From positions 1-63,290 of the forward strand of contig JAQWSU010000020.1 of assembly GCA_029243025.1 (NCBI GenBank): a DNA stretch of 63,290 nt, given 5' to 3'. This DNA comes from Pirellulaceae bacterium (GTDB lineage: Bacteria > Planctomycetota > Planctomycetia > Pirellulales > Pirellulaceae). The position numbers and the translations under genes were made by a program. Of the stretch, positions 5,149-28,804 are shown one piece after another (the first letter of the stretch is position 1; every line of letters starts with the position of its first letter). The notes beneath the pieces were generated by a model. It did not search any database. It had not been told where the DNA came from and saw only the letters and a program-made list of their open reading frames with translations.

Positions 5149-5180
5149 CCCTTTTGAATCATCAGATTTGGACGAAGCAC

Positions 5181-6287
5181 ATGTCGTCGACACCTTTCGC
5201 TCTCGATGTCGAGTTTCTGCTGAAACCAATCTCTATTGACCATCCGGCCGGAATGGATTTGCGTACGGATGCGATTGAACACGATTGTTACGACCAAATT
5301 CGTCGAGAACGTTCCGCGGCACGTTCCGTTGAACGGCGACTTGATGTCGAACCCGATCACGACCGAGTCGGTTTGCAAAAAAATTGGAATTCGGTTTTTG
5401 AACTGTCACAAAAGCTTCTAGCTGAAGACTCAAAAGATCTGGAAATCGCAGCGTATTTGCTGGAAGCCTTGATCCGAGTTCATGGCTTTTCGGGTCTTCG
5501 CGATGGATTCACCATTGTTCGTCGGATCGTCGAGGAATACTGGCCTGATATCTACCCAAAAACTGCAGACAATCAACATCCTGAACTATCCCACTTGGCC
5601 GGCCTGAACGGTGGTGAGGTTATCGGCAGTTTAATAGGGCCCATCTTGACCCAGCCTTTGACTGGCGGAGGTGTGGCTAATGAGTTTATCTGTACAGAAT
5701 TTATGCAAGCTCGACAATTGGAAACATTGTCACCAGAGGATCGTGAGCGTCAGCTGGAGAGTGTACAGCAGGTAACGATGGACGAGTTTCGCCGCGCGGT
5801 CGCCGAAACTCCAACCGGATTCTACGTGCGTTTGCAACAGGATGTTGACGAGTGTCTCGAGGAATTCCAGCAGCTCCGCAGCACCCTCATTGAAGTTTGT
5901 GGCGATCAGGCACCGCCAACCACAAATATTCTTGAGGCGTTGGAAACGTCCGCGGAAATTTTGACTTACATTGCTGGTCCGGCGGATCATCAGAATGCTG
6001 AAGAGATGATTGATGATGCGAAAGATTCGGACGCATCCAGAACTTCGTCCACCGGAAACGCGATGTCTGAAACCATTCGAACTCGGGAAGAAGCCTTGTT
6101 GGCACTGGAAGAAGTTGCCGCATTTTACCGTCGTAGCGAACCACACAGTCCGATGTCTTCGGCAGCCAGTCAGCTTGCGTGTTGGGGCAAGATGACACTG
6201 CCAGAACTTGTCGACATATTGATTCCCGATGAGCAAGCTCGCACTTTCTTTCGGATGCGAACGGGTATGGATGAGACGATGCGCTAG
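5181..6287 (+). CDS. tssA: T6SS baseplate/assembly protein TssA (ImpA N-terminal family)
   Basis: 368 residues. The N-terminal half is an ImpA_N domain: the NWNSVFELSQKLL segment, a helix with LLEALIRVHGFSGLRDG, then EEYWPDIYP and LAGLNG are the usual landmarks. The C-terminal part ends in a short helical domain with the EPHSPMS motif, as in the shorter TssA types that cap or seed the sheath. ATG 5181 is preferred over the upstream TTG 5154, because conserved sequence begins just after it. TssA coordinates baseplate and sheath-tube polymerisation in the cytoplasm. It is the first gene of the locus, convergent with the giant gene that ends 68 bases downstream. Confidence 0.85.
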   Translation: MSSTPFALDVEFLLKPISIDHPAGMDLRTDAIEHDCYDQIRRERSAARSVERRLDVEPDHDRVGLQKNWNSVFELSQKLLAEDSKDLEIAAYLLEALIRVHGFSGLRDGFTIVRRIVEEYWPDIYPKTADNQHPELSHLAGLNGGEVIGSLIGPILTQPLTGGGVANEFICTEFMQARQLETLSPEDRERQLESVQQVTMDEFRRAVAETPTGFYVRLQQDVDECLEEFQQLRSTLIEVCGDQAPPTTNILEALETSAEILTYIAGPADHQNAEEMIDDAKDSDASRTSSTGNAMSETIRTREEALLALEEVAAFYRRSEPHSPMSSAASQLACWGKMTLPELVDILIPDEQARTFFRMRTGMDETMR

Positions 6288-11208: not shown

Positions 11209-11346
11209 GGTTTTCTGGTGTACTCAGTTATTTCAAGTGATTAAACTTGGGGCTTGCGAATTGGAATTGCAATTTCACTTTACAAGTCCGGGCAAATACA
11301 GGGCCTGCGCTTGAGTCGAGTCACTGGAGTTTTAAGGAATTGCGGC

Positions 11347-12852
11347 GTGAAGAGTAGTCAGGTTTGTTGGCTGGAAGGATCTTTGGTGCTACCGCACCAT
11401 TTCCAGGCCGAAGTCACCAATCTACAGTATTGGGCGAATGCAAATATAAACTGGACTACTCCGTTTCATTATGGACTGTGCAAAATCGACTTCGAGCTCG
11501 GCTCAGAAACCTTGACAATTTCGCACCTAAAAGCGCGATTGCGGGACGGCTCAATGATTTCTGTCCCAGAGAACGCAACCATTCATTCGCTGAACTTCAA
11601 ACAGCCTTTGGAGCAAGCTGGAGTTGATGGTCTTTACCTCTATTTGACCCTGCCGGATTATCGTCCCGGGAGAGCAAATGCGGTGCGGGTCGATGAATCT
11701 GAACACACCGACGACGATCAGCGAAGGTATTTTATACAGCAAAGAGAATGGCAGGACGTGAATTTCGAGGATGACGTCCGAACAATTGACTTTTACGATT
11801 TCAATGTTCGCATCAAATGTAGCACGACGCCCATACCTCCAGATGGTTTCACGTCGATTCCACTCTTGAAGATTCTGCCTCCCACGAAACAGAACTCGGC
11901 AGCAAGTATCGACCCCAATTTTTTTCCGCCGCTGCTGTCGTGTTGCGCTTGGCCAGACATGAAGCAACTATTGGGGCAGATTGAGTCCCTTATTGCCAGC
12001 TTTATCAAACAGCAATCAGCCCAGCTCACGCTAATGGATGCCTGGAACCATTTAACGCAACCCAGCATTCAGCGGGCCATCATTCGTCAATCCGCAGCAA
12101 ACGGCGCTTACTCTGTACTCTCGTCGTTAATCGGACTCACACGATGGTCGTGCGAAAGCAGGCCTCTGCATGTGTTGCACCCTTTTCAGATGTACCAGGA
12201 AATTGTGCGGCTGATTGGTCAGTTGGGTATCGTGGAACAAGACTGGATCGCTCCGTCAGTTCCAGAATACGATCATGAAAAGTTGGGGGTTGTATTTCGT
12301 CAATTACAAAACCTACTTCAACGTTTGCTAACACCCTATGGCCCGTCAAAGTTGACGCAGTATCCGATGATTGGCACGGCGGACTGGCTAGAAGTCAGTA
12401 TTGGAAACCTATTGCAGGATGATGCATGCGAATTTTATATAGGCGTCGTTAGTGACATGTCGACTGCGGATATACAACGCCTGTTTTCAGTTCGGCACCT
12501 CGATTGGAAACTGGGAAGCCGGTCGACAATCGGCCAAATCTATAAGAATGCGGAGCCAGGCTTGCGATTGAATGCGTGTGTTGATTGCCCGCCAGATTTG
12601 CCTAATGTTGCTGGTCGAACCTACTTTCATGTCGAATCGACTGGCGAATACTGGGAGGACTTAAAGAAAGATCCCACCTTGGCGTTATGGTTCAATCCGC
12701 GGCATGTACAGGGAAGCTTTTTGGGTTCCAATTTCGTCAACGTCGTGGATCAGGAACGCAAAACGCACAAACTAGAACTTTCGTTATATGTTGTGCAACA
12801 TGAATCTCTCGTTTCAAATCAAAATGGCTCGACCAATCATGATGACGCTTGA
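11347..12852 (+). CDS. tssK: T6SS baseplate protein TssK
   Basis: 501 residues from GTG 11347. That start has an AAGGA box at 11334-11338 with 8-base spacing, and the family's N-terminal landmark V-C-W-x-E-G-x-x-x-x-P-H-H-F-Q follows five codons later; the upstream TTG at 11254 has neither. TssK forms trimers that link the baseplate wedges (TssE-TssF-TssG) to the cytoplasmic parts of TssL and TssM. Length is slightly above the usual 440-450 residues. It starts the tssK-tssL-tssM-like run and overlaps tssL by 29 bases. Confidence 0.88.
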   Translation: MKSSQVCWLEGSLVLPHHFQAEVTNLQYWANANINWTTPFHYGLCKIDFELGSETLTISHLKARLRDGSMISVPENATIHSLNFKQPLEQAGVDGLYLYLTLPDYRPGRANAVRVDESEHTDDDQRRYFIQQREWQDVNFEDDVRTIDFYDFNVRIKCSTTPIPPDGFTSIPLLKILPPTKQNSAASIDPNFFPPLLSCCAWPDMKQLLGQIESLIASFIKQQSAQLTLMDAWNHLTQPSIQRAIIRQSAANGAYSVLSSLIGLTRWSCESRPLHVLHPFQMYQEIVRLIGQLGIVEQDWIAPSVPEYDHEKLGVVFRQLQNLLQRLLTPYGPSKLTQYPMIGTADWLEVSIGNLLQDDACEFYIGVVSDMSTADIQRLFSVRHLDWKLGSRSTIGQIYKNAEPGLRLNACVDCPPDLPNVAGRTYFHVESTGEYWEDLKKDPTLALWFNPRHVQGSFLGSNFVNVVDQERKTHKLELSLYVVQHESLVSNQNGSTNHDDA

Positions 12853-13729
12853 CGTTTTGGAGCAGATCCAAGCTACCAACGGACAAGAACCATCATTAGA
12901 GGAAGCGCAAATCCATTTAAAACGGTCTCTCGGGACCTTTGATGCGCATGGTGCTGACGGGGAATTACAACAGCTCGCACGTCGCGCAATTATCTATTGG
13001 ATGGATGAACGAATCGTCAATGCCGAATGGCAACATGCCCGACGATGGAACGATCAAACACTTGAGTTGCAACTACTTGGAACTCGTAATCGATCCAGAG
13101 CTTTTTACGACGATGCAGCGGTCGCAGAGGGTATGGAACGACTCGATGCGTTCGAAACTTTTGCGGTTTGTGCCGCTTTGGGGTTTCAAGGTTTCTATCG
13201 CCAAAAAATATCCGAATCAGACATGCCCCACGATGCAATTCCAGAGGATAAGCATGACCACGCAGGCAGTCGAGGTTCTGAAGATAGTTCTGATGTCGAC
13301 GACAAGAAAGCGACGCCAGAACATGCGGAAGGAAAGAGCGTTGGAAGTCAGCCCTCGGGAGCAAAAGCAGCAACGGAAAAGCCAGAGACAAGTGAGGCAG
13401 GGACTGAGGACAACTACGGCCAAGCTGTCGTCGTGGCGGATGCAGCGGACGAGACGCAAGATCCACCACCCTCTTTCTCTGAACGCGATGAACTCGATCC
13501 AATTCCAGCGATGAATCAATTTCCGGAAACTTATGATGAATGGGTCTCATCGGCATTTGCTCAACTCTCGGTTCGAAGGCCGACGGAATTTTTGCCACAC
13601 GATCCTCTCGAGTCCGCACGAAGCGCAAAACCTTTGACCGCGGCTAACGGGCTGACTTGGTGGCTCATTACCTTTGCAGTATTTCTCCTGATTACAATTT
13701 TGTTGCTAGACTTCGGAGTTCCATCGTAA
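12824..13729 (+). CDS. tssL: T6SS inner-membrane protein TssL (DotU family)
   Basis: 301 residues. The N-terminal cytoplasmic DotU domain (about 10-135) shows the helical pattern with ARRAIIYWMDERIV and W-x-x-LE-x-x-LLGTR, close to the common AALDE and W-x-x-x-x-LE landmarks. A long acidic, low-complexity linker (about 140-235) follows, and a single C-terminal helix (about 277-298) anchors the protein tail-first. No peptidoglycan-binding OmpA domain is present. Start at ATG 12824 overlaps tssK; ATG 12839 is an alternative. The stop TAA shares bases with the ATG of the next gene (TAATG), so translation is probably coupled. Confidence 0.82.
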   Translation: MARPIMMTLDVLEQIQATNGQEPSLEEAQIHLKRSLGTFDAHGADGELQQLARRAIIYWMDERIVNAEWQHARRWNDQTLELQLLGTRNRSRAFYDDAAVAEGMERLDAFETFAVCAALGFQGFYRQKISESDMPHDAIPEDKHDHAGSRGSEDSSDVDDKKATPEHAEGKSVGSQPSGAKAATEKPETSEAGTEDNYGQAVVVADAADETQDPPPSFSERDELDPIPAMNQFPETYDEWVSSAFAQLSVRRPTEFLPHDPLESARSAKPLTAANGLTWWLITFAVFLLITILLLDFGVPS

Positions 13730-15096
13730 TGCCGGCTTGGTTAGGAAAATGTGTGACGGCCGCCAAGAAGTTGCCCAAGAGCCTAGCTAAACTATTTGGG
13801 AAATCCGTTTCATGGATCTCGAAGTGGTTGCGGATACCCAGATGGATAATTGAGTGCTTATTGGTCGCGACTGTGGTGGTTGCACTAGGTTTGCTGAATG
13901 ACCACTGGCGGTTGGATATGTATCTGACGGGCCCGCGTGTTTTAGCCAAGTACTGGCTAGGACTCCTCGCCTTAGCAGGCTATCTAACCGTGCGTCTCTC
14001 TCTGCTTCTTTTCAACCGGGTATCGACCTCTGGACAAGAATTTTCAGACATTTATCACGCTATCTACAACGGCTGCCAGAAAATTCAGGACGCCAATATC
14101 GACCTGAGGAACACGCCGTTAATTTTGGTTGTGGGAACCGATTTGGCCGCCGAAGCAGGATTAAGCGCCTCCAGCTGCGTCGGCGATACAATCCGTCTTG
14201 CAGACCCGGACGATCCGATCCACTGGTACGGAGACGGTAACGCTTTGTGGGTCACTTTGCCCGGAGTTTCTACAGTCAGTAGACAGTTACAACGCATTAC
14301 ATCGTTCGGTGACAAGCAACAAAATCCGTCCCAAAAGTATCTAAGAATGCCTCTGGCAGACCGCCAGTTGTCCGCACGCCGCATGGACTATGCGCTAAAA
14401 CTATTGCGACACGTCCGACACCCCGTTGTTCCCATCAATGGTATGCAGTTAATGGTCCCTTACTCCTGGGTGGTCGAATCGGGGAGTCAGGAGACGATCG
14501 ATGTTGTAAAAATCGATATGGCGATCTTACAGGAGAGATTAGATATTCGATGCGATTGCCAGATCATTCTGCACAAGATCGAGCAGGTTTCCGAATTCTC
14601 TGCTCTGCTACAGTCCACAACCGAAGAAGAGGCCAAAAAGAGCAACGGCTTGCGATTACCGAGATTCACCGTGGTGAAAACTGAAGACTTCTTCCCGCTG
14701 CATCTGGAGATGGCAAGGACCCTTCGAAAAGGAGTATACGCTCGATATTCTGACGAGCCTACATCGAATTGGAACGCAACTCGGTTTCAATTGCTGGCCC
14801 AATTTTTTTTGGCCAAACTTGGTTTCACGGTACTGTTAGGTAACGCCTTTGCCGATGACATACGCGAACCGTTTTATTTGTCGGGGATCTACTTCGCCAG
14901 TCTTACCCCCGAACAGACCAGGTTTTATGAAGGACCGGCCCTTGAAACACTGGAAAGTCATGATGAATCGATAGGTTGGGCTGATCACACTTTACGAGGC
15001 GAGAAAAACCTAAAACACCTGACGACAGGAATCGCAGCGTGTCTCCTGCTCTTGACACTTGTTGATCTCGCACTGGTGGTTCGATGGCTGTTCTAA
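13729..15096 (+). CDS. Shortened TssM-like (IcmF) inner-membrane protein
   Basis: 455 residues. Two N-terminal helices (about 37-57 and 72-94), a cytoplasmic domain, and one last helix (about 430-453) match the first third of TssM. The cytoplasmic part keeps IcmF landmarks: a strand at the P-loop place, an INGMQLMVPYSW strand, and REPFYLSGIYFAS near the end. The P-loop itself is degenerate (VVGTDLAAEAG instead of GxxGxGKT), so nucleotide binding is doubtful. Canonical TssM has about 1100-1200 residues with a large periplasmic region that binds TssJ; that part is missing here. ATG 13729 overlaps the tssL stop. The giant gene that follows 173 bases later may supply the periplasmic part. Confidence 0.75.
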   Translation: MPAWLGKCVTAAKKLPKSLAKLFGKSVSWISKWLRIPRWIIECLLVATVVVALGLLNDHWRLDMYLTGPRVLAKYWLGLLALAGYLTVRLSLLLFNRVSTSGQEFSDIYHAIYNGCQKIQDANIDLRNTPLILVVGTDLAAEAGLSASSCVGDTIRLADPDDPIHWYGDGNALWVTLPGVSTVSRQLQRITSFGDKQQNPSQKYLRMPLADRQLSARRMDYALKLLRHVRHPVVPINGMQLMVPYSWVVESGSQETIDVVKIDMAILQERLDIRCDCQIILHKIEQVSEFSALLQSTTEEEAKKSNGLRLPRFTVVKTEDFFPLHLEMARTLRKGVYARYSDEPTSNWNATRFQLLAQFFLAKLGFTVLLGNAFADDIREPFYLSGIYFASLTPEQTRFYEGPALETLESHDESIGWADHTLRGEKNLKHLTTGIAACLLLLTLVDLALVVRWLF

Positions 15097-15269
15097 CTGG
15101 TGCGTACCTTGCCATTCAGGACTCGATACTTGGGAGTCTAATATTCTCCCAATTGGAGCTTCGGCTTTCGTTGTTAACGATTCACGCCTCAACCAAGTCT
15201 TAGACAATATCAATTCATTTACACTTCGGTTTTCCAACACACGTCAAACCAGCGAGTTTAACGGATACC

Positions 15270-18200
15270 ATGGCCGACAATAGGTGGCAATTCGGTGCAA
15301 CGGGAACCGGCGTTCGGCAGACGAATGAACACGCTGTCGAAACGGCACCCCATCCCTGGCGACTGAATGTCAGGCGTTTGAATCGATTGGCAATGCTGCT
15401 AAGTCCCATTTTATGGCTGTCATTGATTCTATCCGTTTTAAGCCTGTTTTGGTTAGCCACCTGGTTTGACCGCATCATCGAATCGAATACCATAATTCTG
15501 AGCAGCATTTCTCCTCTACCAGGCGTTAATCCCTACGCCGGGCGTGATGCAGAAGCACTTGCCGGCCTGCAAGGTTTACTTCAGGTAAACCCCTTTGTCT
15601 CGGACCGATTGGATGTTTCGCAATTGGAGCAAGCTGTTTCTGGAATCGCGGAATTATCTCAACCGTATCGATCTTTCCGGCGACCGACGGTAAATCTCGT
15701 GTACGTTAACTGCCCCGGGTTGGCGCTATCGCACCAGGACAAGCTTGTTCCCTATCTACTTCCGACCAACGTTTACGGTTCTTCGTCAACGGTTTATGAA
15801 CGAGTCGTACCAGTGCAAAAGGTGTTAGAAAACCTAGCAGCGTCCAATAGCTCATATAAGGTCTTGGTCTTAGATTGCCAACAATTGGCCAGCTTCTGGC
15901 CGGCCGGAGTCATCTCAAACCAATTCGTATCCTCGGTCAGCAAGCTCCTGGATGATAAACGAGGCGAATATCCTAATTTGTTCGTCTTGATGTCCTGTTC
16001 GGACAACGAAGTCAGTTGGAATGACGACTCGATTGGGCACTCTGTCTTCAGTCGTTATTTTTTGCAAGGGATAACAGGAGCGGCAGATAAAAGTGGCACA
16101 AATGATCGAAAGGTTTCGCTCGACGAACTACACGAATATGTGCGAATAAACGTGAATCTCTGGACGCAAAAAAACAGGGGAGTATCTCAGCAGCCTTTCA
16201 TGCTTTACACGGGGGATGGCAACGCTCAAAATTTTGCTCGCGACGTTCCGTTAACGATTGTGACAGCCGGACACCCGATATGGCAAGCGAAAGCAATGAC
16301 GGATGCTACCACACAAAAAGAACGGTTAGCAGAATTACAGACAAGTTGGCAAACCTACTATCAAACAGCTCGTTCACTACCATCGCCGACATCCTGCGCG
16401 CCACAGCTTTTTCGTTTATGGGAGGACTCGTTGCTAAATGCAGAAGCGAGTTTAAGACAACATAACGAACAAACGATGCGGCAGGCAGTCAATATGGCAA
16501 ATGACTACGCAAGACAGGTACGCGCAGCACAGGAACGTTATAGCTTTGGCAACTCGGCTTTCTCATTGCCGATGATCCGGATGTTCACGAATCCAGATCA
16601 ATCGGTATCTGGTACGTCGCCCATTGGCAATCAAGAAACAAAAGGTCCATCAGATCGTTTAGCCAGTCCCAAGAAAAACAACGTTGTTCCAAACAAGGCC
16701 TCGGATACCCGGACATCAGCAGGCGAATCTCCAGCAGCGGATGCCGAAATCGGGACTGGACCAACCCAACAAAATGCGCACGCGAAAAACGCGAATCAGG
16801 TCGATGGGGCTAATAACGACGGAACAGGTAAATCACCCTCCGACACAACGCACCAACAAGATAAACCGGCATCTGTCACTGCCGAATCGATTCCTGCCAA
16901 GCCGATGACTTTGCCAGAGATTCGTTCGGCAATGACAGAGATCGAAGCCAACACCGGCGCCGTCGTAAAGTACGGTAAACAGTTACAGGAACGAGAACAC
17001 GATACACTTCCGGCAGAGGCGGAGTTGGTTCGAATGATGGTCGACCGTTGGCCGACCGACAAAGGCCAAGGACCACTCCGTGATTTTGGTCACCGAGTCA
17101 TAAATTCAAGAATCCAAGTCGAACAAGCGGCTGTACCTGGTGGTCACTTTGCCTATCGTATTTTCCCTTGGGTCAAGGCACCCATGAAGGAAGTTGATCA
17201 ACTGCAACGAGAGATCGAAGACCTGTTCTTCGCCGTTGCCGGACCGCCATCGACTGTCGATCGTGAAAGCTGGAATAGTCTGAACAACAAGATGCCATCG
17301 GTGGACGAGATTAAATCTGCCGGAAAAAATTTAGCAACTGCGTACGCGTTGCGCGATCAATCCATTTCCGCATTGCCTGGCTTGGCCAAATTTTATCGCA
17401 GTTCTTTTATTTCGTACGACGAGCAGCGAGATCAGATCATCGAAGGGACACATGAACTCGTCAACGAAAATTATCAATTGTGTGGTGACCTACGTTTCGT
17501 CGATGATTTAGCGGCTTCTAATCAAGCGGATAAATTACAAGATTTGATTGCCCAAAGCGACCGAGTCGCACCGATCTACTTCCAACTATTGAAATTAATC
17601 AACCAAGAGTATCTGCACCTTAGCGAATCAATTGGAACTAAACTCTATCTTTCTGCGAACCAGTGGAAACGCCTTGATGCCATTCTAAAAATTCCTTTTG
17701 ATTACAGTCAGCGGCGACGATCGCAGTCGTCAAGTAGTGGTAGCGTTTCGCTCTTCGATTTCCTTGAATCTCCCAATGCGCTCGCTACTCGAAGAGTTCG
17801 TCTCCTAGAAAGAATCTCGTTATTCGCGCCGGAACGCCGGCCGCGACCACCTCAGTCGAGTTCAGAAGAGGCGACAGCAACCCCAAAAACAGTTGGCCTC
17901 CATCCCGATGAAGTTGCGACCGCCGAATTCGCCACTGCACTTTTCAGTTTGCCGGAATTGGTTTCGACACCGCTATCACCAGCAAGTATTCAAAATGGAT
18001 TCAGTTCGACACTTGCCGGCGCGTGGGAAGACTCGTACCGCGCAGCGACATTAAATTTGTCACAAATTAGATCAAATTTGATCATTGGCGACCTAGCTAG
18101 CCGAATCATCGATCCGCAAGTACTGGAATCGAAGTGGGTGTTTCTTGAGCGAACGCCGCCTCAGATGCTTCGTGCACAACAGCTTTCGGCGTTCGCCCAA

Positions 18201-20240
18201 TGGCATGGACAAAGGCGCGCCGGCGATTTGTGGTCTACTCCCACGGAAGACGGAACTCCCTACTATTTGAAAACGTCGGGAAACTTAGACCGACTCGCGA
18301 AGAAATTTGTATCCAGTCAACAGAACCCCCAAAAGGTATCAAGTTCTTCTTCAGATCATCCCGGTTTTTTACAGGTCACAGAAGAACCGTATTCCATTGG
18401 CCTCCAGCCCGATCGGCCTGCGATTACGTTTCGTGGAACCGACCAGGAGAAAATCAGGTTTAAGGTTCAACTTCCCGAAGACAATACAGCGAACCATGTC
18501 GACCTGCGACTCACAAGCGATTCAGATCAACTCACGATTAGTCAGATTTCAACGGATCGTGGCGAACTTGAGTATCAAATCGAGCGTAAGACCACCACTG
18601 AATTCAATACCGTCGTAACTGCAACCCTTTTCTTCAGAGGTAGTTCGATCGATCGCACTATTCCTGTCGAATCGATCGGTGACTGGCAGGGACCTACGGT
18701 CGATTATGATTACCAAGTGTTGAACGAAGCAAAACTCCGAGTGAGTTTAGGTGACGTTAGTCGAGCGCCCGAACATCTACTATTCGTCCTGGATTCCTCA
18801 CGCAGCATGGCGGAACTTCAACGCTTACAGGAAGTCAAACAGGTATTACGGACGTTTTCGGATTCGGTTTCGCAGAATGGGATAAGCGTGGGCATTCGCG
18901 TATTTGGTTCACGTATTGTTTGGAAGGAAAACGATGTTTATTCGGAAGCTGAAGCGAGAAAAGATACACAACTCGTATTGCCCCTACGCGCATTTCCTGG
19001 AACGGCATTTCGAGAAACGATCAGTCGACTCAAACCCGTAGGTGAATCTCCCTTATTCTATTCCTTGTTAGAAGCCAAAAATGACTTTCAGTATGTCAAT
19101 CCGGGCAGTCGACGAATCATTGCGATTTCTGACGGAAGCGACAACTGGGCGGATCAAGGGCTTGCGCCAGGGATAGCACAACTGCAAACCGCGTATCAAG
19201 ATTCGGGCATTCCTATCGATGCCATAGGATTCAAGTCCGACCTCCAAGGTTGGTCGCAACTGCAAAACATCGCGGATGTGACTGGAGGGAAAGCCGTCAA
19301 GATTGATCACGCAAACGATCTGTTAAGTTGCGTCCTTGACCTTGCTCAGATGCGCCGATTTGACGTTCAGCCTGCTCCAACGGGTATTTCCGATCTACCG
19401 AGGCAGCTCAACTTTTCAGGAGCTGATCTGCCGGTCAAACCCGGCACCTACAACGTGCGAATTCTCGATCCAAAGGACAACCCAATGGCCAAAACGTCCG
19501 TGCCCATTCGGCCTGGCCAACAACACGACTTGGTTTTTCGCGGTGGTGAATTGACCTACAATCCGTTCGATGAGCGTGCAAGTAAAGCCGTTTTCACAGA
19601 CGATAAAACTGGCGTCTCGTTGATCATTTCAGACTTTACGTTCGACGATGGGGTCCTAAACGTCACTTTGGCATTGTCGCACCAACACGAACCCAATTGG
19701 TGGCCCAAAAGCGTCCAGTTCAAGCTACAACCTCATAACCACAGCGAAATCTACTCGGTTGCTAATGTTTCTCCCAATGTCGCTGGGCACCATATCCCGG
19801 TCTGGACAATTACGCTGAACGAATGGCCATCAGCTGCCTCTTTTGCGAGGGTATCCGCCTCTTGGCAGAATACAGATCGCAGGCTGAAAACTTATCGGCT
19901 TCCTTTATCGAATCGCAGCTTAATAACGAACCCACAACTACCCGATGGAATTCGTGTGACTCGAGACAAGCAAAGCTTGCGACAAATTGAAGGAGTGCGG
20001 AAAATCTTGCAACACATCACATTGGTTTCCGATTCAAAACCATCAATCCTCGAATGGAGTCTTCAGTCAGGTGCTAGTTTTGGATATTCGCGACAAAACT
20101 ACAATGTTGCCGAAGGGATTTACAATGTCGAATTCTTGCCGAATAAAGACACACTGGAAGCAATCACGCTCGTGCAACAGACTGGTGAACGATCTCGTAT
20201 TCAAGGTGACATCGATCTCCGAGCGCCGAAGCTAGATTAG
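15270..20240 (+). CDS. Giant single-pass membrane protein with degenerate caspase-like domain and VWA domain
   Basis: 1656 residues. One helix (about 41-65) anchors it. Residues about 75-335 follow the caspase-like plan: LVYVNCPG strand, YLLPTNVYG, VLVLDCQQL strand, GHSVFSRYFLQGITG, then KVSLDELHEYV and QQPFML. The GHG histidine is replaced (NCPG) and the DxCxS cysteine motif is altered (DCQQ), so activity is unlikely. A disordered Gln/Pro/Ser linker (about 440-545) and a helical region follow. A VWA domain starts near residue 1168 with an intact MIDAS DSSRS (D1175, S1177, S1179) and later a SDGSD motif; beta domains finish the protein. It comes after the TssM-like gene in the same direction. 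I infer a periplasmic scaffold of the T6SS membrane complex. Confidence 0.72.
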   Translation: MADNRWQFGATGTGVRQTNEHAVETAPHPWRLNVRRLNRLAMLLSPILWLSLILSVLSLFWLATWFDRIIESNTIILSSISPLPGVNPYAGRDAEALAGLQGLLQVNPFVSDRLDVSQLEQAVSGIAELSQPYRSFRRPTVNLVYVNCPGLALSHQDKLVPYLLPTNVYGSSSTVYERVVPVQKVLENLAASNSSYKVLVLDCQQLASFWPAGVISNQFVSSVSKLLDDKRGEYPNLFVLMSCSDNEVSWNDDSIGHSVFSRYFLQGITGAADKSGTNDRKVSLDELHEYVRINVNLWTQKNRGVSQQPFMLYTGDGNAQNFARDVPLTIVTAGHPIWQAKAMTDATTQKERLAELQTSWQTYYQTARSLPSPTSCAPQLFRLWEDSLLNAEASLRQHNEQTMRQAVNMANDYARQVRAAQERYSFGNSAFSLPMIRMFTNPDQSVSGTSPIGNQETKGPSDRLASPKKNNVVPNKASDTRTSAGESPAADAEIGTGPTQQNAHAKNANQVDGANNDGTGKSPSDTTHQQDKPASVTAESIPAKPMTLPEIRSAMTEIEANTGAVVKYGKQLQEREHDTLPAEAELVRMMVDRWPTDKGQGPLRDFGHRVINSRIQVEQAAVPGGHFAYRIFPWVKAPMKEVDQLQREIEDLFFAVAGPPSTVDRESWNSLNNKMPSVDEIKSAGKNLATAYALRDQSISALPGLAKFYRSSFISYDEQRDQIIEGTHELVNENYQLCGDLRFVDDLAASNQADKLQDLIAQSDRVAPIYFQLLKLINQEYLHLSESIGTKLYLSANQWKRLDAILKIPFDYSQRRRSQSSSSGSVSLFDFLESPNALATRRVRLLERISLFAPERRPRPPQSSSEEATATPKTVGLHPDEVATAEFATALFSLPELVSTPLSPASIQNGFSSTLAGAWEDSYRAATLNLSQIRSNLIIGDLASRIIDPQVLESKWVFLERTPPQMLRAQQLSAFAQWHGQRRAGDLWSTPTEDGTPYYLKTSGNLDRLAKKFVSSQQNPQKVSSSSSDHPGFLQVTEEPYSIGLQPDRPAITFRGTDQEKIRFKVQLPEDNTANHVDLRLTSDSDQLTISQISTDRGELEYQIERKTTTEFNTVVTATLFFRGSSIDRTIPVESIGDWQGPTVDYDYQVLNEAKLRVSLGDVSRAPEHLLFVLDSSRSMAELQRLQEVKQVLRTFSDSVSQNGISVGIRVFGSRIVWKENDVYSEAEARKDTQLVLPLRAFPGTAFRETISRLKPVGESPLFYSLLEAKNDFQYVNPGSRRIIAISDGSDNWADQGLAPGIAQLQTAYQDSGIPIDAIGFKSDLQGWSQLQNIADVTGGKAVKIDHANDLLSCVLDLAQMRRFDVQPAPTGISDLPRQLNFSGADLPVKPGTYNVRILDPKDNPMAKTSVPIRPGQQHDLVFRGGELTYNPFDERASKAVFTDDKTGVSLIISDFTFDDGVLNVTLALSHQHEPNWWPKSVQFKLQPHNHSEIYSVANVSPNVAGHHIPVWTITLNEWPSAASFARVSASWQNTDRRLKTYRLPLSNRSLITNPQLPDGIRVTRDKQSLRQIEGVRKILQHITLVSDSKPSILEWSLQSGASFGYSRQNYNVAEGIYNVEFLPNKDTLEAITLVQQTGERSRIQGDIDLRAPKLD

Positions 20241-21097: not shown

Positions 21098-21697
21098 ATG
21101 GCAGACAGTTCACAACACAAACTATCGCGCGTCCGTCGGCCACGAATTCAGATTACCTACGATGTTGAGACCGAGGGTGGGACCGTCCAGAAGGAGCTAC
21201 CTTTCGTCGTGGGAGTTTTGGGCGATTTTGTGGGTGACCAAAAGGATGAAGAGAAGGTTCCTCCGTTGGCCCAACGCAACTTTGTCGATGTAACCGGATC
21301 CAACTTTGACCAAGTGATGGAAAAATTAGGTCCGAAATTATCTTTGAATCCTAACGATGATGGTGTTCCCTTTCCAATCGAGCTGGAGTTCCACAGCATG
21401 GATGACTTCAGCCCAGACAATCTCGTTACGATCGATTCCAGCCAAAACGGCATTCCGGAACTGAATGCTTTGCTGCAGACACGCAGCGATGTGAGTGACT
21501 TGTTAACACTGGTTAGTCGGTCTCACCAATTGGAAGAGATGCTCCAGCACAGTCTCGAGAATAAGGACGGCGCATTGGAAGAATTGCGCAACGCACTGCC
21601 GGCTCCTGAGTCAACTGCATCGCCAGCATCGGCGACCGACGGAGATGCCAAGCCTGATGCCTCAGCGAACGCATCCGATAGCAGCGACGATCAATAG
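21098..21697 (+). CDS. tssB: T6SS contractile sheath small subunit TssB (VipA)
   Basis: 199 residues. The start carries the family pattern: R-x-x-R-I-Q-I-T-Y-D-V followed by LPFVVGVLGDF, then FVDVTGSNFDQVM. TssB pairs with TssC to form the contractile sheath around the Hcp tube. The last 45 residues are a disordered tail rich in Ala, Ser and Asp, longer than the usual 160-170 residue protein. ATG 21098 is the only sensible start. It heads the tssB-tssC-tssC2-tssE-tssF-tssG-hcp run. Confidence 0.92.
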   Translation: MADSSQHKLSRVRRPRIQITYDVETEGGTVQKELPFVVGVLGDFVGDQKDEEKVPPLAQRNFVDVTGSNFDQVMEKLGPKLSLNPNDDGVPFPIELEFHSMDDFSPDNLVTIDSSQNGIPELNALLQTRSDVSDLLTLVSRSHQLEEMLQHSLENKDGALEELRNALPAPESTASPASATDGDAKPDASANASDSSDDQ

Positions 21698-21758
21698 GCG
21701 AGTTAATCCGCGTTGATTTCAACGACCGCATTTTCCCTTGACACAAGGTTTTCACGAG

Positions 21759-23375
21759 ATGGCCGACGACACCAAAACCGTAGCAAAACATTCCGACATT
21801 CTGCCGCAAGCATATGAACAGTTGACGCCGGCGAATGAACAGATGATCAACAAGGCGTTGCAAGTCTTTGCAGACTTGGCCCAGGGAAACATCCCGCAAA
21901 ACGTTTTAGGTTTTTTCAAGGATCCGGATACGGCGAAGGAAATTGTTTATAAGTCCATCCAGCTTCCTCTCCAGGATCTTGACGATGAGATCGCACAGCA
22001 CCTTCCTGGTGGAAAACCAGAGGATGCGACAATGGTTACTGTGGCATTACAGCAACTGATTCAAGCGATTGACGCAAAGCTGTCACAACTACTCGCACAA
22101 ATTCTGCACACGAAAAAATTCCGTGAAATGGAAGGCTCGTGGCGCGGTTTGAAGTATTTAGTGACCAACAGTGAGGTTGGAACTTCCCTAAAAATCAAAG
22201 TGCTAAGCGCCAAGAAGGAAGAATTAAGAAAGGACTTTGAGAAGTCAAGTGACTTTGATCAAAGTCAGATTTTCAAGAAGGTGTATTCCGATCAGTACGG
22301 TTCACCAGGTGGAGAACCCTTCTCGATTTTGGTCGGAGACTATTCTTTTGGAAACAACAATCCGGATTTGGAGCTGCTCTCACAGATTCGCGAAGTATCG
22401 GCCGACGCTTTTGCTCCGTTTATTGCTGCATCCGACCCAAGCTTATTTGGATTTAGCGAGTGGAATGAGGTGGATAAGCCGGTCGACTTAGCAACCATCT
22501 TTGATTCCGTGCTATATGCTCAATGGAATTCGATGCGTGAGCATCCTGATGCGAGGTTCATAACTCTCGCGATGCCACGTGTTTTGGCGCGTGGTAGTTA
22601 CGGAGCTTTAGATCAGCCAACCGAGAAATTTGCTTTCGAAGAGCAGCCGTTATCAAACTATCCGGACGCCGAGCACGACAAATATGCGATTCCCACAGGA
22701 ACGGATACGTTTTGCTGGAGCAATGCTGCCTACTATGTCGGTCAACGAATCACCAACGCCTTTGCGAAGTATGGCTGGTGCACGGCAATCCGTGGTTATG
22801 AAAACGGCGGTCAGGTCGAAGACCTGCCTATGCATTACTTCTACAATCACAAGACTGGCAATGTCGAGTCACTCTGTCCTACAGAAGCACCCCTCACGGA
22901 CCGACGTGAATATGAAATCGATCGTTTGGGTTTCTTGTCCTTGTCCTATTACAAGAATTCGAACTACGCTGTCTTTTTCGGCGGCCAGACGACTCAAAAA
23001 CCGCTTAAGTATGACAACCCTGATGCTACGGGCAATGCAGCCCTTTCCGCTCGATTGCCGTATATGTTGGCAACCTCACGCATCGCCCATTACCTGAAAA
23101 TGATTGGTCGCGACAAGGTGGGTTCATTCTTGGAGCTTCCGGATGCACAACTTTGGTTGGATCGTTGGATTGCGCAATACATCTGCGCCGATAAATTTCC
23201 AACCCCAGAAGCAAAGGCCAGTTATCCCTTGGCCGAAGCAAAAATTTCCGTGACTCCGGTCCCAGGTGCACCAGGCTCTTATGTTGCGATTGCGTGGTTG
23301 AGACCATTTCTGCAGTTCGAGGAACTGACTACGTCTTTGCGTTTAGTCGTAAAAATACCGTCCACAGCGGCTTAG
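21759..23375 (+). CDS. tssC: T6SS contractile sheath large subunit TssC (VipB)
   Basis: 538 residues. Family landmarks are clear: FREMEGSWRGLKYLV, VYSDQYGSPGGEPFSILVGDY, FAPFIAASDPSLFG, LPYMLATSRIAHYLK and the C-terminal GSYVAIAWLRPFLQFEELT. TssC forms the sheath with TssB. The start ATG 21759 is chosen over the TTG at 21738, because it begins MADDTK with an AAGG box upstream and conserved sequence comes later in any case. It lies 61 bases after tssB and 31 before the second tssC-like gene. Confidence 0.93.
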   Translation: MADDTKTVAKHSDILPQAYEQLTPANEQMINKALQVFADLAQGNIPQNVLGFFKDPDTAKEIVYKSIQLPLQDLDDEIAQHLPGGKPEDATMVTVALQQLIQAIDAKLSQLLAQILHTKKFREMEGSWRGLKYLVTNSEVGTSLKIKVLSAKKEELRKDFEKSSDFDQSQIFKKVYSDQYGSPGGEPFSILVGDYSFGNNNPDLELLSQIREVSADAFAPFIAASDPSLFGFSEWNEVDKPVDLATIFDSVLYAQWNSMREHPDARFITLAMPRVLARGSYGALDQPTEKFAFEEQPLSNYPDAEHDKYAIPTGTDTFCWSNAAYYVGQRITNAFAKYGWCTAIRGYENGGQVEDLPMHYFYNHKTGNVESLCPTEAPLTDRREYEIDRLGFLSLSYYKNSNYAVFFGGQTTQKPLKYDNPDATGNAALSARLPYMLATSRIAHYLKMIGRDKVGSFLELPDAQLWLDRWIAQYICADKFPTPEAKASYPLAEAKISVTPVPGAPGSYVAIAWLRPFLQFEELTTSLRLVVKIPSTAA

Positions 23376-23406
23376 CAACGCCCTTGCGTGAAATGCAATA
23401 GAATTG

Positions 23407-24981
23407 ATGACTGACGCTCTCACACCCCTGATAGAATCGTTGCGTTTGATCATCACAAACCTTCGATCACAACCCTGGGCTGACGCACATCTCCAAACGT
23501 TGAGGCGAATCCTCTTTGAAACAGAGAATCGCCTCAGCGTAGCCGAAAAGCTAAGGGGGTGGCTTGTGCGAACGATGATGCTTTTGGATGCGCGACTAAG
23601 GGATATCGCATGTCGCATTGTCGAAGCACCTCGTTTCAAGAAACTAGAGGCTTCTTGGCACGGGCTAAGAAGCCTGGTTCAGCAAAATTCAGACGAAGGT
23701 CACATTCGGATTCGAGTTTTGACTGTCAAATGGCCTGAGCTGTCAAGTGACGCTCAGTGCTCTCTGGATTTCGAGCAGTCTGCTCTATTTCGCCGAATCT
23801 ATAGTGAAGAATATGGCATGCCCGGCGGTATTCCATTCGGACTCCTGGTGGTTGACTTTGAAGTGCATGGCCAACGTACCTCAAAACACCAAATAGATGA
23901 TGTCGCGGCACTGGATCATGTAAGCCAGGTTGGAGCGGCAGCATTTGCTCCTTTGCTGATTGGCATAAGTCCAAAACTCTTTGGCCTTAATCATTTCGGA
24001 GAGGCGATTCTTCCGCTTTCTTGTTACTTTGATAATCATGAACCCGCCTTTCATAGGTGGCGGACATTCCAACGTAGTGAGGCTGCCCGATTCGTGGGCG
24101 CGACGTTGCCAAGAGTTCTTGTACGAACGCCTTATCGCGAATTCGAAACCGACTTTTTTGCATCGGGAGAACTGGCGTCCAACGCGAAATCGATCTTACC
24201 CTCAACTTGCGAAGGTCAGGATGAAACATCAAAAGCTCAACCTACCAACACGTCAAGGAACGCGTCGTTGCGTGGTCAGGAAACATCCAGTCCACGGTAT
24301 CTGTGGGGCAACGCCGTCTACCCAACCGCATTAGTGGTGATGCGTTCATTTTCCGAAACGGGCTGGTTCCAAGATATCACGGGTGTCGACAAAGATACTC
24401 CCCGGGGTGGTCGTATGGACGGCATGGTAACGGACCGCTTCGTGATGAATGCGAAAAACAATGCCCCCAAGTTTTCGACCGACGTGCTGATTACGGATCG
24501 AGATGAGATGGCACTTAGCCGCCTTGGGATCATTGCTCTTTGTCGTTGCAAATGGTCCGACTTCACCGCAATTTACAATTGCCCGTCTTTGCATCTGCCG
24601 ATGCGGTACGATTCCATTGCCGGTACCCGCAACGAACAACTTTCGTCGAATTTCAGTTTAGTTCTGTGTGTCTCGCGATTCGCCCACTATATCAAAGTCA
24701 TGGCCCGAGATTGGATTGGCTCGACATTGTCGATGGCCGAAGTGCAAATGCGATTAAATCGCTGGTTAGCCCAATACATTTCTCCCGCAGCTCCTGAAGA
24801 CGACGGCCGTTTCCGGTATCCACTCCGTGCCGCTTCGGTCGAGCTATTCGACATGCCGATGAATCCCAGATCCTATGCGTGCCGGATTCATCTGCAGCCG
24901 CATTTGTATGGTGTCGAAGCTACCGCGATGACAGCGCTCACAGAAATTCCACGCACTGAGCTGAAACCAGTGGCGATTTAG
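23407..24981 (+). CDS. Second TssC-like sheath protein
   Basis: 524 residues, clearly a paralogue of the preceding TssC: KKLEASWHGLRSLV, YSEEYGMPGGIPFGLLVVDF, FAPLLIGISPKLFG, CVSRFAHYIKVMARDWIG and a C-terminal SYACRIHLQPHLYGVEA match it in order. It lacks much of the N-terminal arm of TssC that threads between sheath subunits, and it carries a Ser/Asn/Gln-rich insertion (about 250-300). Some T6SS and related sheath systems encode a second TssC-type protein of unknown role. It could cap the sheath or act in the baseplate. ATG 23407 is used, two codons upstream is TTG. Next gene starts 21 bases later. Confidence 0.85.
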   Translation: MTDALTPLIESLRLIITNLRSQPWADAHLQTLRRILFETENRLSVAEKLRGWLVRTMMLLDARLRDIACRIVEAPRFKKLEASWHGLRSLVQQNSDEGHIRIRVLTVKWPELSSDAQCSLDFEQSALFRRIYSEEYGMPGGIPFGLLVVDFEVHGQRTSKHQIDDVAALDHVSQVGAAAFAPLLIGISPKLFGLNHFGEAILPLSCYFDNHEPAFHRWRTFQRSEAARFVGATLPRVLVRTPYREFETDFFASGELASNAKSILPSTCEGQDETSKAQPTNTSRNASLRGQETSSPRYLWGNAVYPTALVVMRSFSETGWFQDITGVDKDTPRGGRMDGMVTDRFVMNAKNNAPKFSTDVLITDRDEMALSRLGIIALCRCKWSDFTAIYNCPSLHLPMRYDSIAGTRNEQLSSNFSLVLCVSRFAHYIKVMARDWIGSTLSMAEVQMRLNRWLAQYISPAAPEDDGRFRYPLRAASVELFDMPMNPRSYACRIHLQPHLYGVEATAMTALTEIPRTELKPVAI

Positions 24982-25002: not shown

Positions 25003-25500
25003 GTGTCCAAGACAAGATCACACTGGCGAACATCAAGTCGTGTTCCCTCATCGTTTTCGATCGTTGATCGACTCCTGGATCCCGATGATTTAGGCGACAA
25101 GATGGGATCCGCAACTCCAAGTCAAATCAACACATTCCAGAGACGATCCATCAATCGTGATCTCGAGGATTTGTTAAACACACGCACCCGATGCTTGTCA
25201 TTGCCTGCACACCTGGAGGAATTAAACGACTCTCCCGCGAGCTTCGGACTGCCCGATTTTGGGCGGCAAAGCTTTGAGTCGGATGTCACAAAAAATCGGC
25301 TTCGAGAATTGATCGAAGATGCCATTGCGAGATTTGAACCGCGGTTGTCGAACGTTCAGGTGTCGGTCGTACAGACATCCATGGACGGAATCTTAAGGGT
25401 TGAAATTGAAGGTTTTTTGATCACGGAAAACAATTGGACAATTCTTACGACGGATTATTCGATTTGGTCAGGTCGCTTTAGTAGTGTCGGAGCACCATAA
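25003..25500 (+). CDS. tssE: T6SS baseplate protein TssE (gp25-like)
   Basis: 165 residues from a GTG start with an AGG box nearby. The GPW/gp25 fold is recognisable: SLVDRLLDP-type opening (here SIVDRLLDP), R-SINRDLEDLLNTR, LPDFG and the C-terminal FEPRLSNVQVSV. TssE is the small wedge protein that starts sheath assembly. It follows the second tssC gene by 21 bases and its stop overlaps the tssF ATG (TAATG), which indicates translational coupling. Confidence 0.9.
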   Translation: MSKTRSHWRTSSRVPSSFSIVDRLLDPDDLGDKMGSATPSQINTFQRRSINRDLEDLLNTRTRCLSLPAHLEELNDSPASFGLPDFGRQSFESDVTKNRLRELIEDAIARFEPRLSNVQVSVVQTSMDGILRVEIEGFLITENNWTILTTDYSIWSGRFSSVGAP

Positions 25501-27488
25501 TGCAGCACTTGATGGATTACTACAACAATGAACTGCAATACCTCCGAAAACTGGGCGAATCATTTTCGAAGCAATATCCGGGAGTCGCCAATCGCCTTGG
25601 TAATGGAGTAGTCACTGAAGATCCACACGTTGAACGTCTGATACAAAGTGCTGCATTTTTAACCGCCCGCGTTCGGCAGGAACTGGATGATCAGTTTCCT
25701 CAAGTCGTTGGGAGCATGTTAGAGCTGATCGCACCAAACTCATTAACATCAAATCCTTCCATTGCAATCGCTCAAGTCGACTCAGGAGCGGCTACTCAAT
25801 CCAAAATGGTGATGGTGCCACGAGCAAGCCGGTTGTCGACTCGTACATTCCAAGATGCCGAAACGCAGCAAAGTCCGGAATGTCAATTCCAAACCTGCTA
25901 TCCGGTCGAGGTCTGGCCGATAAGACTTGTGGAGGCTGATCTCGCTGGTGCGCCTTTCAGGGTCGCAGATGTTGCTCCAGGGACCAAAAGCGTTCTCACC
26001 TTGCGATTTGCTTGGACCACTAAGAAGCAACTTCCCGTACCGGGAATGAGTCGGATCCGATGCTATCTTTCCGGAGAAATGGGGCAAGTCGAATCGCTTT
26101 ACGAACTTCTATTTGCCCATGCGATTGAAGCGAATCTATCGCCTCAACCGACCCGTGGTGATAAGAACGCCGATCGAAAAACGGGCATGCACGAACAGCT
26201 CGCAAACCGCTTCTTGCGAATAGCGCCCGTCGGATTTGAATCGGCCGACACGTTGCGTCCCCATTGTTCAAGAGTTCCTTTGGGGCACGAGTTACTCTCG
26301 GACTTCTTCACGTTTCCACGCAAATTCATGTTTTTCGACATTGAAGGCTTGGGCGAGATGAGCGGTCCGGAATTTTCCGTATCGGTCTCCTTGTCCGACC
26401 GTCGTCCCGAACTTGAAGTATCCGTGAATGCGCAGTCATTTCAACTGAACTGCACGCCCGTTATTAACTTGTTTTCACAACGTGCTCAACCGATACGGCT
26501 GTCGCACGAGAAACACGAATTTCCGATTATTCCCGATGAGATGGGGCGGCGCGATACGGAAGTGTTTTCAATCGATAAAGTGAGCACGATCGCGGGAGAC
26601 GGCCATGTTCAGGAATTTGCGAAGTTGTATTCGTTACAACATTCCGCTACCAGCGAAGGGCATCCTTTGTATTGGACGAGTCGACGCGAGCAACGCTGGG
26701 ACGACAAACGCAAGGAGGTGAAGGACGCTTTCTACCTTTCGCTGGTTAATTCATCGTTCGAAGAAGAGCTCGTGAACCTTCCAGATAGTGCCGTGCTCGT
26801 GGACACAACATGCACGAACGGAATGCTCCCCGCGAAACTTCCTTTCGGTGGGACAATGGAAACAGATTTATCCTCAAATGGTTCCACGGCAGCGGATGAG
26901 CGTCTTTGGTTTCATTGCGAAAAGGGCGTATTCAAGAGATTTCGATGTTTGACCCGTCCGACACCCATTCGACGCGTCGATATGGATCATTCACATCTGT
27001 GGAAATTGGTTTCAAATTTGTCGTTAAATCATCTTTCGATTATTTCACCTGAGAACGAACCCAAACGATTTCGGGCAAAGAACGATCCTATCAATAGTGT
27101 TAAAGGCAGCGACGAGACCACGAATGATCGTGTCGCAGCGATACGTGACGTCTTGAGCGTCTACGACTTAGGAGTCTCGTTTGGAAAGCCGTTTCCTTTT
27201 GAAGCGATCGTTGACCTCAGCAGTCATCGATGTGCGCGGCGCGTGTCGGAGCAACAACTCCCGTTGAGAATTCATGCTGGTTTCTATCGAGGAGTTTCAA
27301 TTCGGTTGACGGTTCAACGAGAGCGGTTTGCGGGGCATTGCCTGTACCTGTTTGCTTCAGTTCTCGATCGATTTTTTGCCCTCTACAGTTCTTTGAACTC
27401 ATTCACGCAATTGACCGTTCAGTTCGAACATGAATACGAAGGAAGGGAGTGGTCATGGCCAGCTCGATCGGGCGAACGTCTGGTCTAG
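25500..27488 (+). CDS. tssF: T6SS baseplate wedge protein TssF
   Basis: 662 residues. The N-terminus has the TssF signature: YYNNELQYLRKLGESFSKQY, PHVERLIQSAAFLTARVRQ and QFPQVVGSMLELIAPN; later HCSRVPLGHELLSDFFTFPRKFMFFDI-type sequence (residues about 255-285) and the C-terminal VLDRFFALYSSLNSFTQL follow. Two TssF and one TssG make one baseplate wedge with TssE and TssK. The length is a little above the usual 590-620 residues. Start overlaps the tssE stop and the end overlaps tssG by 34 bases. Confidence 0.93.
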   Translation: MQHLMDYYNNELQYLRKLGESFSKQYPGVANRLGNGVVTEDPHVERLIQSAAFLTARVRQELDDQFPQVVGSMLELIAPNSLTSNPSIAIAQVDSGAATQSKMVMVPRASRLSTRTFQDAETQQSPECQFQTCYPVEVWPIRLVEADLAGAPFRVADVAPGTKSVLTLRFAWTTKKQLPVPGMSRIRCYLSGEMGQVESLYELLFAHAIEANLSPQPTRGDKNADRKTGMHEQLANRFLRIAPVGFESADTLRPHCSRVPLGHELLSDFFTFPRKFMFFDIEGLGEMSGPEFSVSVSLSDRRPELEVSVNAQSFQLNCTPVINLFSQRAQPIRLSHEKHEFPIIPDEMGRRDTEVFSIDKVSTIAGDGHVQEFAKLYSLQHSATSEGHPLYWTSRREQRWDDKRKEVKDAFYLSLVNSSFEEELVNLPDSAVLVDTTCTNGMLPAKLPFGGTMETDLSSNGSTAADERLWFHCEKGVFKRFRCLTRPTPIRRVDMDHSHLWKLVSNLSLNHLSIISPENEPKRFRAKNDPINSVKGSDETTNDRVAAIRDVLSVYDLGVSFGKPFPFEAIVDLSSHRCARRVSEQQLPLRIHAGFYRGVSIRLTVQRERFAGHCLYLFASVLDRFFALYSSLNSFTQLTVQFEHEYEGREWSWPARSGERLV

Positions 27489-28804
27489 ACCAGCGACTGT
27501 TCCAACATCCCGAATACTTTGATTTTTTTCAGATCACGCGGCTACTTGAACAAAGGTTCGTCCGAGAGCATTTCCCCAACACGGTCGATGACAGGCTAAT
27601 TGAGCGTGACATTCGCGCGTTCGACAAATCACGGCTCCCATTGGGTTATGATGCGCCACCCGATCAGGAAGTCGTTCGGTTTCGCACCACGCTTGCTGCC
27701 GCATTTCCGGCGACGGAGGTTGTTTCACTCATCGCAAGCCCTGACCACCCAGAACTACCTCCTGAATTGGTGATTCCTTTTATGGGGCTCGTGGGGCCTT
27801 CGGGAGTGTTGCCCGATAGTTATACAGAAAAGCTAAGGGAATTGGCACTAACGGGAGAAGCGGCTGCTCATGCGTTTTTCGATCTATTCCTGCACCGATC
27901 CGTATCGCTGTATTATCGCGGTTGGAAAAAACATCGTTGCGATATTTCCTTTGAACAACGTCAGCTTTCTCGATTGGGTTGCGTATCAACTACTACCACG
28001 CTCGATTGTTTTAGCGAGTGCATGCGACACCTGGTAGGTCTGGGGCAAAAGGGGGTTCAAGCCAACCTTACACGCCAAATCATCAACATTGAGAAAATTG
28101 AATCACAGAAGGATCCATTTGAATTACGGCTAGACTCACAATCGATACAGGATGTATTCACCTATTATTCTAGTCATTTTGCGACCTCCAATCGGTCGTC
28201 TGTAGGGCTCGAAGACGTACTTGGCGACGTCTTCCGCGAACACGTCTCGGTCATTCCATTCCAACGCTCATGGCTGTACTTGGATGCTGAAGTCCAATCT
28301 CGTTTTCCCGCCCGCAATTCGACAACCGGCAGTTCACTAACACGTTTGGGTGAGGATTTTGTCCTGGGGGCTCGAGTCCGCGACCAAGAGACAAAATTTG
28401 TGATCCAAATTGGTCCGATCGCTTCACGCGAGCGTTTCCTCGCTTTACTGCCCTGGTCAAACGAAAAGCATGATGGGCCGCGATCGAATGTACACAACCG
28501 CTTGTTGCGGCAAATAACGCGACTTTATTCCGGCCCACAATATGAAATTGAAATCAATCTGCTGATCTTTGATCGTGATGTGCCACAGTTTTCTTGGCGA
28601 CTTCCGCAACGTGACAGTCCACCAAACGATGCAACTCATCGATCAACTGATGCGGACAGCCCCCTTCCGGCATTGGGTTGGACGACCATATTGGGACGTA
28701 CCGAAAAACAATTTGACGAACCAATAAGAGAACGACAAGGATTTGACGACAGTTGTTTTACTGACGTCAGATTCTCACTTGATTTTATTCCTTCACCTAA
28801 CTGA
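27455..28804 (+). CDS. tssG: T6SS baseplate wedge protein TssG
   Basis: 449 residues. TssG landmarks: FDFFQITRLLEQRF near the start, MGLVGPSGVLPDSYTE (a variant of the common G-L-x-G-x-x-G-P-L-P), FLDLF-type FFDLFLHRSVSLYYRGWKK, and a late FVLGARVRDQETKF. It joins TssF in the baseplate wedge. ATG 27455 has an AAGGGAG box seven bases upstream; the in-frame GTG six bases earlier is less well placed. hcp follows after 13 bases, and the conserved order E-F-G-hcp supports one transcript. Confidence 0.9.
   Translation: MASSIGRTSGLDQRLFQHPEYFDFFQITRLLEQRFVREHFPNTVDDRLIERDIRAFDKSRLPLGYDAPPDQEVVRFRTTLAAAFPATEVVSLIASPDHPELPPELVIPFMGLVGPSGVLPDSYTEKLRELALTGEAAAHAFFDLFLHRSVSLYYRGWKKHRCDISFEQRQLSRLGCVSTTTTLDCFSECMRHLVGLGQKGVQANLTRQIINIEKIESQKDPFELRLDSQSIQDVFTYYSSHFATSNRSSVGLEDVLGDVFREHVSVIPFQRSWLYLDAEVQSRFPARNSTTGSSLTRLGEDFVLGARVRDQETKFVIQIGPIASRERFLALLPWSNEKHDGPRSNVHNRLLRQITRLYSGPQYEIEINLLIFDRDVPQFSWRLPQRDSPPNDATHRSTDADSPLPALGWTTILGRTEKQFDEPIRERQGFDDSCFTDVRFSLDFIPSPN

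Follow-up and report, generated by a model that had tools for sequence, protein, structure and literature searches.

The class to which this Pirellulaceae bacterium belongs probably assembles its T6SS with an alternative membrane complex, in which giant pillars stand on a short TssL/TssM base. The evidence lies in the anatomy and topology signals of these proteins, in their conservation and co-occurrence, and in that neither TssJ nor the periplasmic family of TssM was detected. The window, by which we mean the whole analysed stretch of 63,290 nucleotides, belongs to an 8.35-Mb genome that is 96% complete in 60 contigs, and Pfam recognised the general T6SS set, TssB/TssC, TssE/F/G/K, Hcp, VgrG and TssA, in one locus. 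The gene order is TssA, giant 1 (minus strand), TssK, TssL, short TssM, giant 2, TssB, TssC, a second TssC, TssE, TssF, TssG, Hcp and VgrG. Beyond VgrG, the minus strand encodes a PAAR-like protein, a barrel-like secreted protein and then a HEAT-repeat secreted protein (Table 1). The Pfam scan, which took in 26 proteins of the window, showed no TssH/ClpV ATPase.

Table 1. Genes of the T6SS locus in the window and the evidence for their assignment.
Feature	Position	Strand	Evidence
TssA (ImpA_N)	5154..6287	+	Pfam
Giant 1, 1584 aa	6355..11109	-	Pfam and paralogy to giant 2
TssK, baseplate protein	11254..12852	+	PF05936, 6.7e-55
TssL (DotU), C-terminal membrane helix	12788..13729	+	PF09850, 8.6e-18; family tail counts
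Short TssM, 455 aa	13729..15096	+	PF14331, 6e-11; hhalign to long TssM; tail and Walker A counts
Giant 2, 1656 aa	15270..20240	+	Pfam VWA and caspase
TssB sheath	21098..21697	+	Pfam
TssC sheath	21738..23375	+	Pfam
Second TssC-like sheath protein	23404..24981	+	Pfam, NCBIfam
TssE (GPW_gp25)	25003..25500	+	Pfam
TssF	25500..27488	+	Pfam
TssG	27449..28804	+	Pfam
Hcp	28743..29309	+	Pfam
VgrG	29528..31840	+	Pfam
PAAR-like protein	33010..33405	-	IglG-type model NF041248, 5e-14, below cut-off
Barrel family, secreted, likely outer-membrane beta-barrel	33553..34830	-	weak PF13557, 0.016
HL family, secreted HEAT-repeat protein, conserved cysteines	34857..36116	-	PF13646, 5e-4, below cut-off; alignment; genome counts

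The ATG of tssM at 13729 overlaps the stop codon of tssL. The protein consists of N-terminal membrane helices, a cytoplasmic IcmF-related domain and a last (third) helix, after which it stops, and besides IcmF-related_N no Pfam family was matched at E 0.1. When a profile of 9 short TssM was aligned with one of 16 long TssM of the same phylum (hhalign probability 99.4), columns 40-536 of the short profile corresponded to columns 12-443 of 1171 in the long one. The roughly 730 columns that the short form lacks make up the periplasmic part. This agrees with the original prediction that the protein ends after the third helix. For the long profile 20 stretches were fetched, and four (L164, L166, L168, L169) were left out since they offered no safe choice of frame. 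In the 84 short TssM from 83 loci the median tail past the last helix is 6 residues long and the longest is 53. The P-loop had been called degenerate; the TssM of the window has none, and the Walker A motif (GxxxxGK[ST]) occurs in 0 of 84 short and in 16 of 16 long TssM. When PDB sequences were searched with a profile of the short TssM, nothing credible came back.

A match to the short TssM was found in 160 of 397 genomes sampled from the host's class. Among the matches listed, the TssM frames of this class mostly have 450-780 residues, some fewer, and the longest three have 822, 852 and 962, while those in other classes of the phylum mostly have 1100-1680. The 962-residue frame carries a kinase-like stretch at its N-terminus. 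In a quick maximum-likelihood tree of the 84 short and 16 long TssM, rooted at the midpoint with no outgroup, one branch separates the two sets (SH-aLRT 100). The sole relative returned by a scan of named genomes was Planctomycetaceae bacterium isolate SP176 (L151), a separately assembled MAG with a TssC 93% identical to that of the window. It carries TssM and the giant intact, and its TssM again has 455 residues and the identical stop codon. Amino acid identity to the window is 75% for TssM and 72% for the giant, and with a simple dN/dS of about 0.19 and 0.26, respectively, both genes look constrained. The uniform ends, the lack of Walker A, the intact and constrained relative and the split in the tree argue that the short TssM is a long-standing form common to these genomes rather than the result of damage.

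It is thus hardly credible that TssM has decayed, was mis-assembled or is rescued by frameshifting like tssM1 of Citrobacter rodentium. Slippage rescue of an interrupted tssM does have a T6SS precedent, as described in PMC4256274. However, the like end in 84/84 proteins, the stop shared with the separately assembled relative and the dN/dS of its TssM led us to reject a pseudogene or an assembly error. Slippage was rejected by the position of the sole A/T run of at least 7 bases in 14001-15400, which lies at 14803, about 290 bases ahead of the stop; moreover, 173 bases separate TssM from the giant.

The source genome contains no match to TssJ (PF12790) or IcmF_C, and its single PF14331 match is the TssM of the window. 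IcmF_C and TssJ were also sought in 80 genomes, picked mainly by completeness and not randomly: 50 with short TssM, the source genome included, and 30 controls of other classes, among them G268, whose listed PF14331 frames are all below 1000 residues. IcmF_C was matched in 0/50 short-TssM genomes vs 8/30 controls (5 above cut-off), some of these in non-TssM frames, which makes it a weak probe in this phylum. TssJ was matched at the sequence level in 0/50 vs 17/30; this model is a fair probe that may miss a TssJ. No tssJ had been seen at the locus, and none was detected in the genome or in the short-TssM relatives searched; the full-length tssM or tssJ elsewhere in the genome that would have spoken against the original prediction was sought and not found. 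We consider it very improbable that the system has no trans-envelope anchor, or that it works through canonical parts diverged beyond recognition. The genome is 96% complete and TssJ is hard to detect, as the controls indicate, which leaves some room for it; yet neither family was matched in any of the 50 genomes, several of which are a single contig, and TssL and TssM are retained.

The gene after TssM encodes the giant single-pass protein with a VWA domain that had been predicted. Giant 2 has one hydrophobic segment, with the membrane helix at about residues 45-66, preceded by a basic cytoplasmic tail with a WR motif. Outward of the helix there are a caspase-like domain (about 70-330; Pfam match 180-310, 1.9e-4), a helical part (346-1034), a beta-sandwich (1044-1136), the VWA domain (about 1166-1361; Pfam match 1170-1343, 1.8e-5) and more beta domains. 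The VWA domain has the MIDAS metal site (DxSxS and the distal D). The caspase-like domain does not qualify as an active caspase (C14): judged by eye against the catalytic motif, the 25 aligned giant 2 sequences share no cysteine where the catalytic one should be, and the histidine is present in some rows only. Giants are frequently paired, as here. Giant 1 is a paralogue of giant 2 across the N-terminal half, ends in a C-terminal CarboxypepD_reg-like domain, lacks a VWA domain and has no W[RK] motif in its cytoplasmic tail, although the tails of the family often bear one.

The original prediction described TssM as split, which would make the giant its detached and enlarged C-terminal half. We regard this as improbable. 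The periplasmic part of TssM is helical and then beta, so that the giant, with a membrane helix, a helical part and beta domains, follows the same broad order, and the gene order TssL-TssM-giant would suit a split as well. Against it, the profile-level comparison of the giants with the 16 long TssM gave hhalign probabilities of 0.9 (giant 2) and 0.2 (giant 1), and to our knowledge caspase and VWA domains do not occur in TssM. A fold look-up with a model of residues 1-1160 of giant 2 did not bring up TssM among the 50 matches listed, which says little on TssM likeness since the caspase domain occupies the list. As no sequence similarity links the giants to TssM, our argument for replacement of the periplasmic region comes from co-occurrence.

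The probe used to find giants in the genomes was the caspase-like region of giant 2. At a printed exponent of -28 or lower, a giant was found in 138 of 160 short-TssM genomes vs 5 of 237 genomes of the class without short TssM, with thresholds that, as in the other genome counts, were picked after the scores were seen. A cut-off of -35 gave 134/160 vs 4/237, while at -20 the contrast blurred (145/160 vs 31/237). Among the five positive genomes without short TssM, G526 scored 9.4e-28, and of the remaining four, three reach a completeness of only 65-75%. None of 58 PF14331-bearing genomes of other classes, 6 of which have all listed frames below 1000 residues, carries such a giant at that level, since the best match was 1.5e-20 in a 708-residue frame. 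We attach no probability to these counts, since samples from related genomes are not independent.

Under the threshold there are 22 of the 160 short-TssM genomes, and four of them (G443, G580, G492, G581) have giant-like genes at the locus. The plainest exception is G409, a 100% complete genome in one contig with two short TssM and a best giant match of 1.1e-4, where the widening search found only a 730-residue giant-like ORF. At the loci, the first giant profiles, built from 5 sequences, found giants in 36 of 82 fetched loci but overlooked divergent ones, and wider profiles placed a giant within the stretch read in 46 of 83 loci, window included, leaving 37 without one. The widening search feeds on its own matches and may drift, and the 46 stem partly from it; the genome counts are independent of it. 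Profile seeds were drawn from short-TssM genomes (A7 24 genomes, A12 14, A13 5 of the 40 tested). TssM is directly followed by the giant in many loci. Where it is not, the giant is often elsewhere in the genome, about 53 kb away (G205, G328, G310) or about 420 kb (G121). The expectation of finding the same pair in other planctomycete loci was thus borne out for presence at the locus, but direct adjacency is not general. Relatives with a short TssM and no giant, which would have weakened the prediction, are reduced to a few exceptions such as G409, since a giant missing from the locus is often found elsewhere. With neither contrary finding made beyond those exceptions, the suggestion that the giant may replace the lost periplasmic part of TssM holds at the level of sequence.

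The giants and the HEAT-repeat proteins could also be linked to the T6SS without a structural role, for example as a surface sensor or in prey adhesion, where the caspase and VWA domains would signal or bind and a protein that we did not recognise would make the span. Sensing and adhesion proteins commonly have VWA and caspase-fold domains, and some giants lie as far from TssM as in G205 and G121. We consider this unlikely in view of the tight co-occurrence with short TssM, the 0/58 in TssM-bearing genomes of other classes and the many loci in which the giant is the very next gene. The address, size and distribution of the giants fit the missing inner-to-outer span.

The earlier reading was incomplete in that it missed giant 1 at 6355-11109 as a paralogue and two further families, HL and barrel, which also accompany giants. 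Both emerged when those genes of the 83 loci that had no assignment were sorted into groups. HL was matched at E 1e-9 or better in 39/40 short-TssM vs 1/40 other genomes, picked mainly by completeness and not randomly; at E 1e-3 the contrast blurred (40/40 vs 11/40). At least three members (L095, L097, L113) have a lipobox-like start, judged by what we take to be the lipobox motif. The true start of the HL gene in the window possibly lies inside the ORF. The barrel family, whose nature is read from a weak Pfam match and inspection of the sequence, was present at a printed exponent of -63 or lower in 80/160 short-TssM vs 3/237 other class genomes, and is thus absent from half of the former. At E 1e-3 this contrast blurred as well (105/160 vs 28/237). 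At the loci the family occurs in 15 of 83. Among the matches listed, HL lies within 4 kb of a barrel in 18/31 genomes and no more than 6 kb from a giant in 12/36, while 10/39 HL genes have none of the listed barrels, giants or TssM nearby. G291 encodes HL and barrel fused into one protein of 1351 residues, which argues that they work jointly at the outer membrane.

In the arrangement that we favour, TssL and the short TssM would retain their inner-membrane and cytoplasmic role and dock TssK and the baseplate, and neither would enter the periplasm. The giants, with a single N-terminal membrane helix and their bulk outside, would take the place of the periplasmic pillar of TssM. The caspase-fold domain, which has no conserved catalytic cysteine, would be adjacent to the membrane, the helical part would span the periplasm, and the beta-sandwich, VWA and other beta domains would point toward the outer membrane. 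The basic W[RK] tails may plug into the TssLM/TssK base, the HEAT-repeat protein, with the barrel in about half of the genomes, may form the outer end instead of TssJ, and the VWA metal site may lock the giant to its outer partner. We infer all these contacts, the pillar role, the roles of tail, VWA, HEAT protein and barrel, and the order of assembly. The full hybrid design is more tentative than the alternative complex as such: a T6SSi TssL/TssM base and single-pass giant pillars with VWA/beta ends, anchored by the HEAT-repeat (lipo)protein and the barrel, where the barrel is possibly a docking ring or exit and the VWA metal site a releasable lock.

Compared with the proteobacterial T6SSi complex TssJ-TssL-TssM, the C-terminal helix of TssL, the N-terminal helices, cytoplasmic domain and helix 3 of TssM, and the baseplate and tail genes are alike. 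In contrast, TssM here lacks Walker A and the entire periplasmic part, TssJ was not found, and giants, HEAT protein and barrel are added. Since two defining TssJLM features were looked for and not found, we do not class the system as a TssJLM complex. The Bacteroidota T6SSiii complex TssNQOPR (PMC10781749) offers a striking parallel: TssR is a lipoprotein at the outer-membrane side with a VWA domain, TssP has PKD domains, and both systems have single-pass proteins with periplasmic parts and a VWA envelope protein. T6SSiii is described as being without TssL and TssM, whereas both are kept here, and the proteins differ in size and in the order of their domains. The NCBIfam matches of the window giants at E 0.1 included no TssR model, and those of the scanned window proteins no TssN/O/P/Q/R model. 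The likeness is probably convergent.

For Acinetobacter, PMC10564176 describes a TssJ-less complex with TsmK. The role of TssJ is spread there over lineage-specific envelope proteins, as it would be here, but TssM has a special linker and keeps its periplasmic part, while that part is gone here. Citrobacter rodentium also makes a TssM without the C-terminal part, TssM1[1-807], but needs the full-length form too (PMC4256274); no full-length TssM was found here. T6SS genes of Rhodopirellula baltica were noted in 2009 (PMC2660368) and 2017 (PMC5394234). Our literature search, which covered titles and the starts of abstracts and few subscription papers or preprints, turned up among the entries listed neither this complex nor any description of a T6SS membrane complex from planctomycetes.

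If the proposed complex is real, the periplasmic pillar and the outer-membrane anchor of the T6SS, usually deemed core, were swapped wholesale across a large class while the base was kept. TssM would be modular at helix 3, a VWA-bearing envelope protein would have arisen in two separate T6SS lineages, and candidate genes would be at hand for the passage of the T6SS through the planctomycete envelope. Such systems may also be under-counted, since the NCBIfam TssM model TIGR03348 gave the TssM of the window 25 bits against a cut-off of 388.

The W[RK] motif was found in the cytoplasmic tails of the giants, the single-pass envelope proteins of the window (15270-20240) and related loci, at a frequency far over the chance expectation (48/59 vs 20.8 by chance). 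It is possibly a docking motif.

The secreted HEAT-repeat family (HL) can be linked to the barrel family, which is secreted and likely outer-membrane, since the two are naturally fused in a single 1351-aa secreted protein of genome G291 (locus L174, 1284-5339).

In genome G409 (locus L103, 5404-8274), a short TssM is fused C-terminal to a protein-kinase-like stretch, judged so by its kinase motif, within a 956-aa protein. In one genus (L032, 10699-11049, and kin), TssM is followed by a 116-aa protein that has a lipobox-like start and is a candidate local lipoprotein partner. Of the window proteins compared with Pfam (290-63272), none matched ClpV (TssH). TssM is adjoined in loci L129 and L130 by a 941-aa protein, presumably ClpV by its look.

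The second TssC of the window has counterparts in number in L099, L104, L108, L110 and L143, which also carry two. The T6SS locus of the window is adjoined by a large polyketide/non-ribosomal peptide cluster.

Further features of the window
Feature	Position	Basis or remark
Second TssC	23404-24981	diverged
Large polyketide/non-ribosomal peptide cluster	40828-63272	AMP-binding and condensation domains
2654-aa ORF of this cluster	40828-48792	putatively assigned, by inspection of sequence
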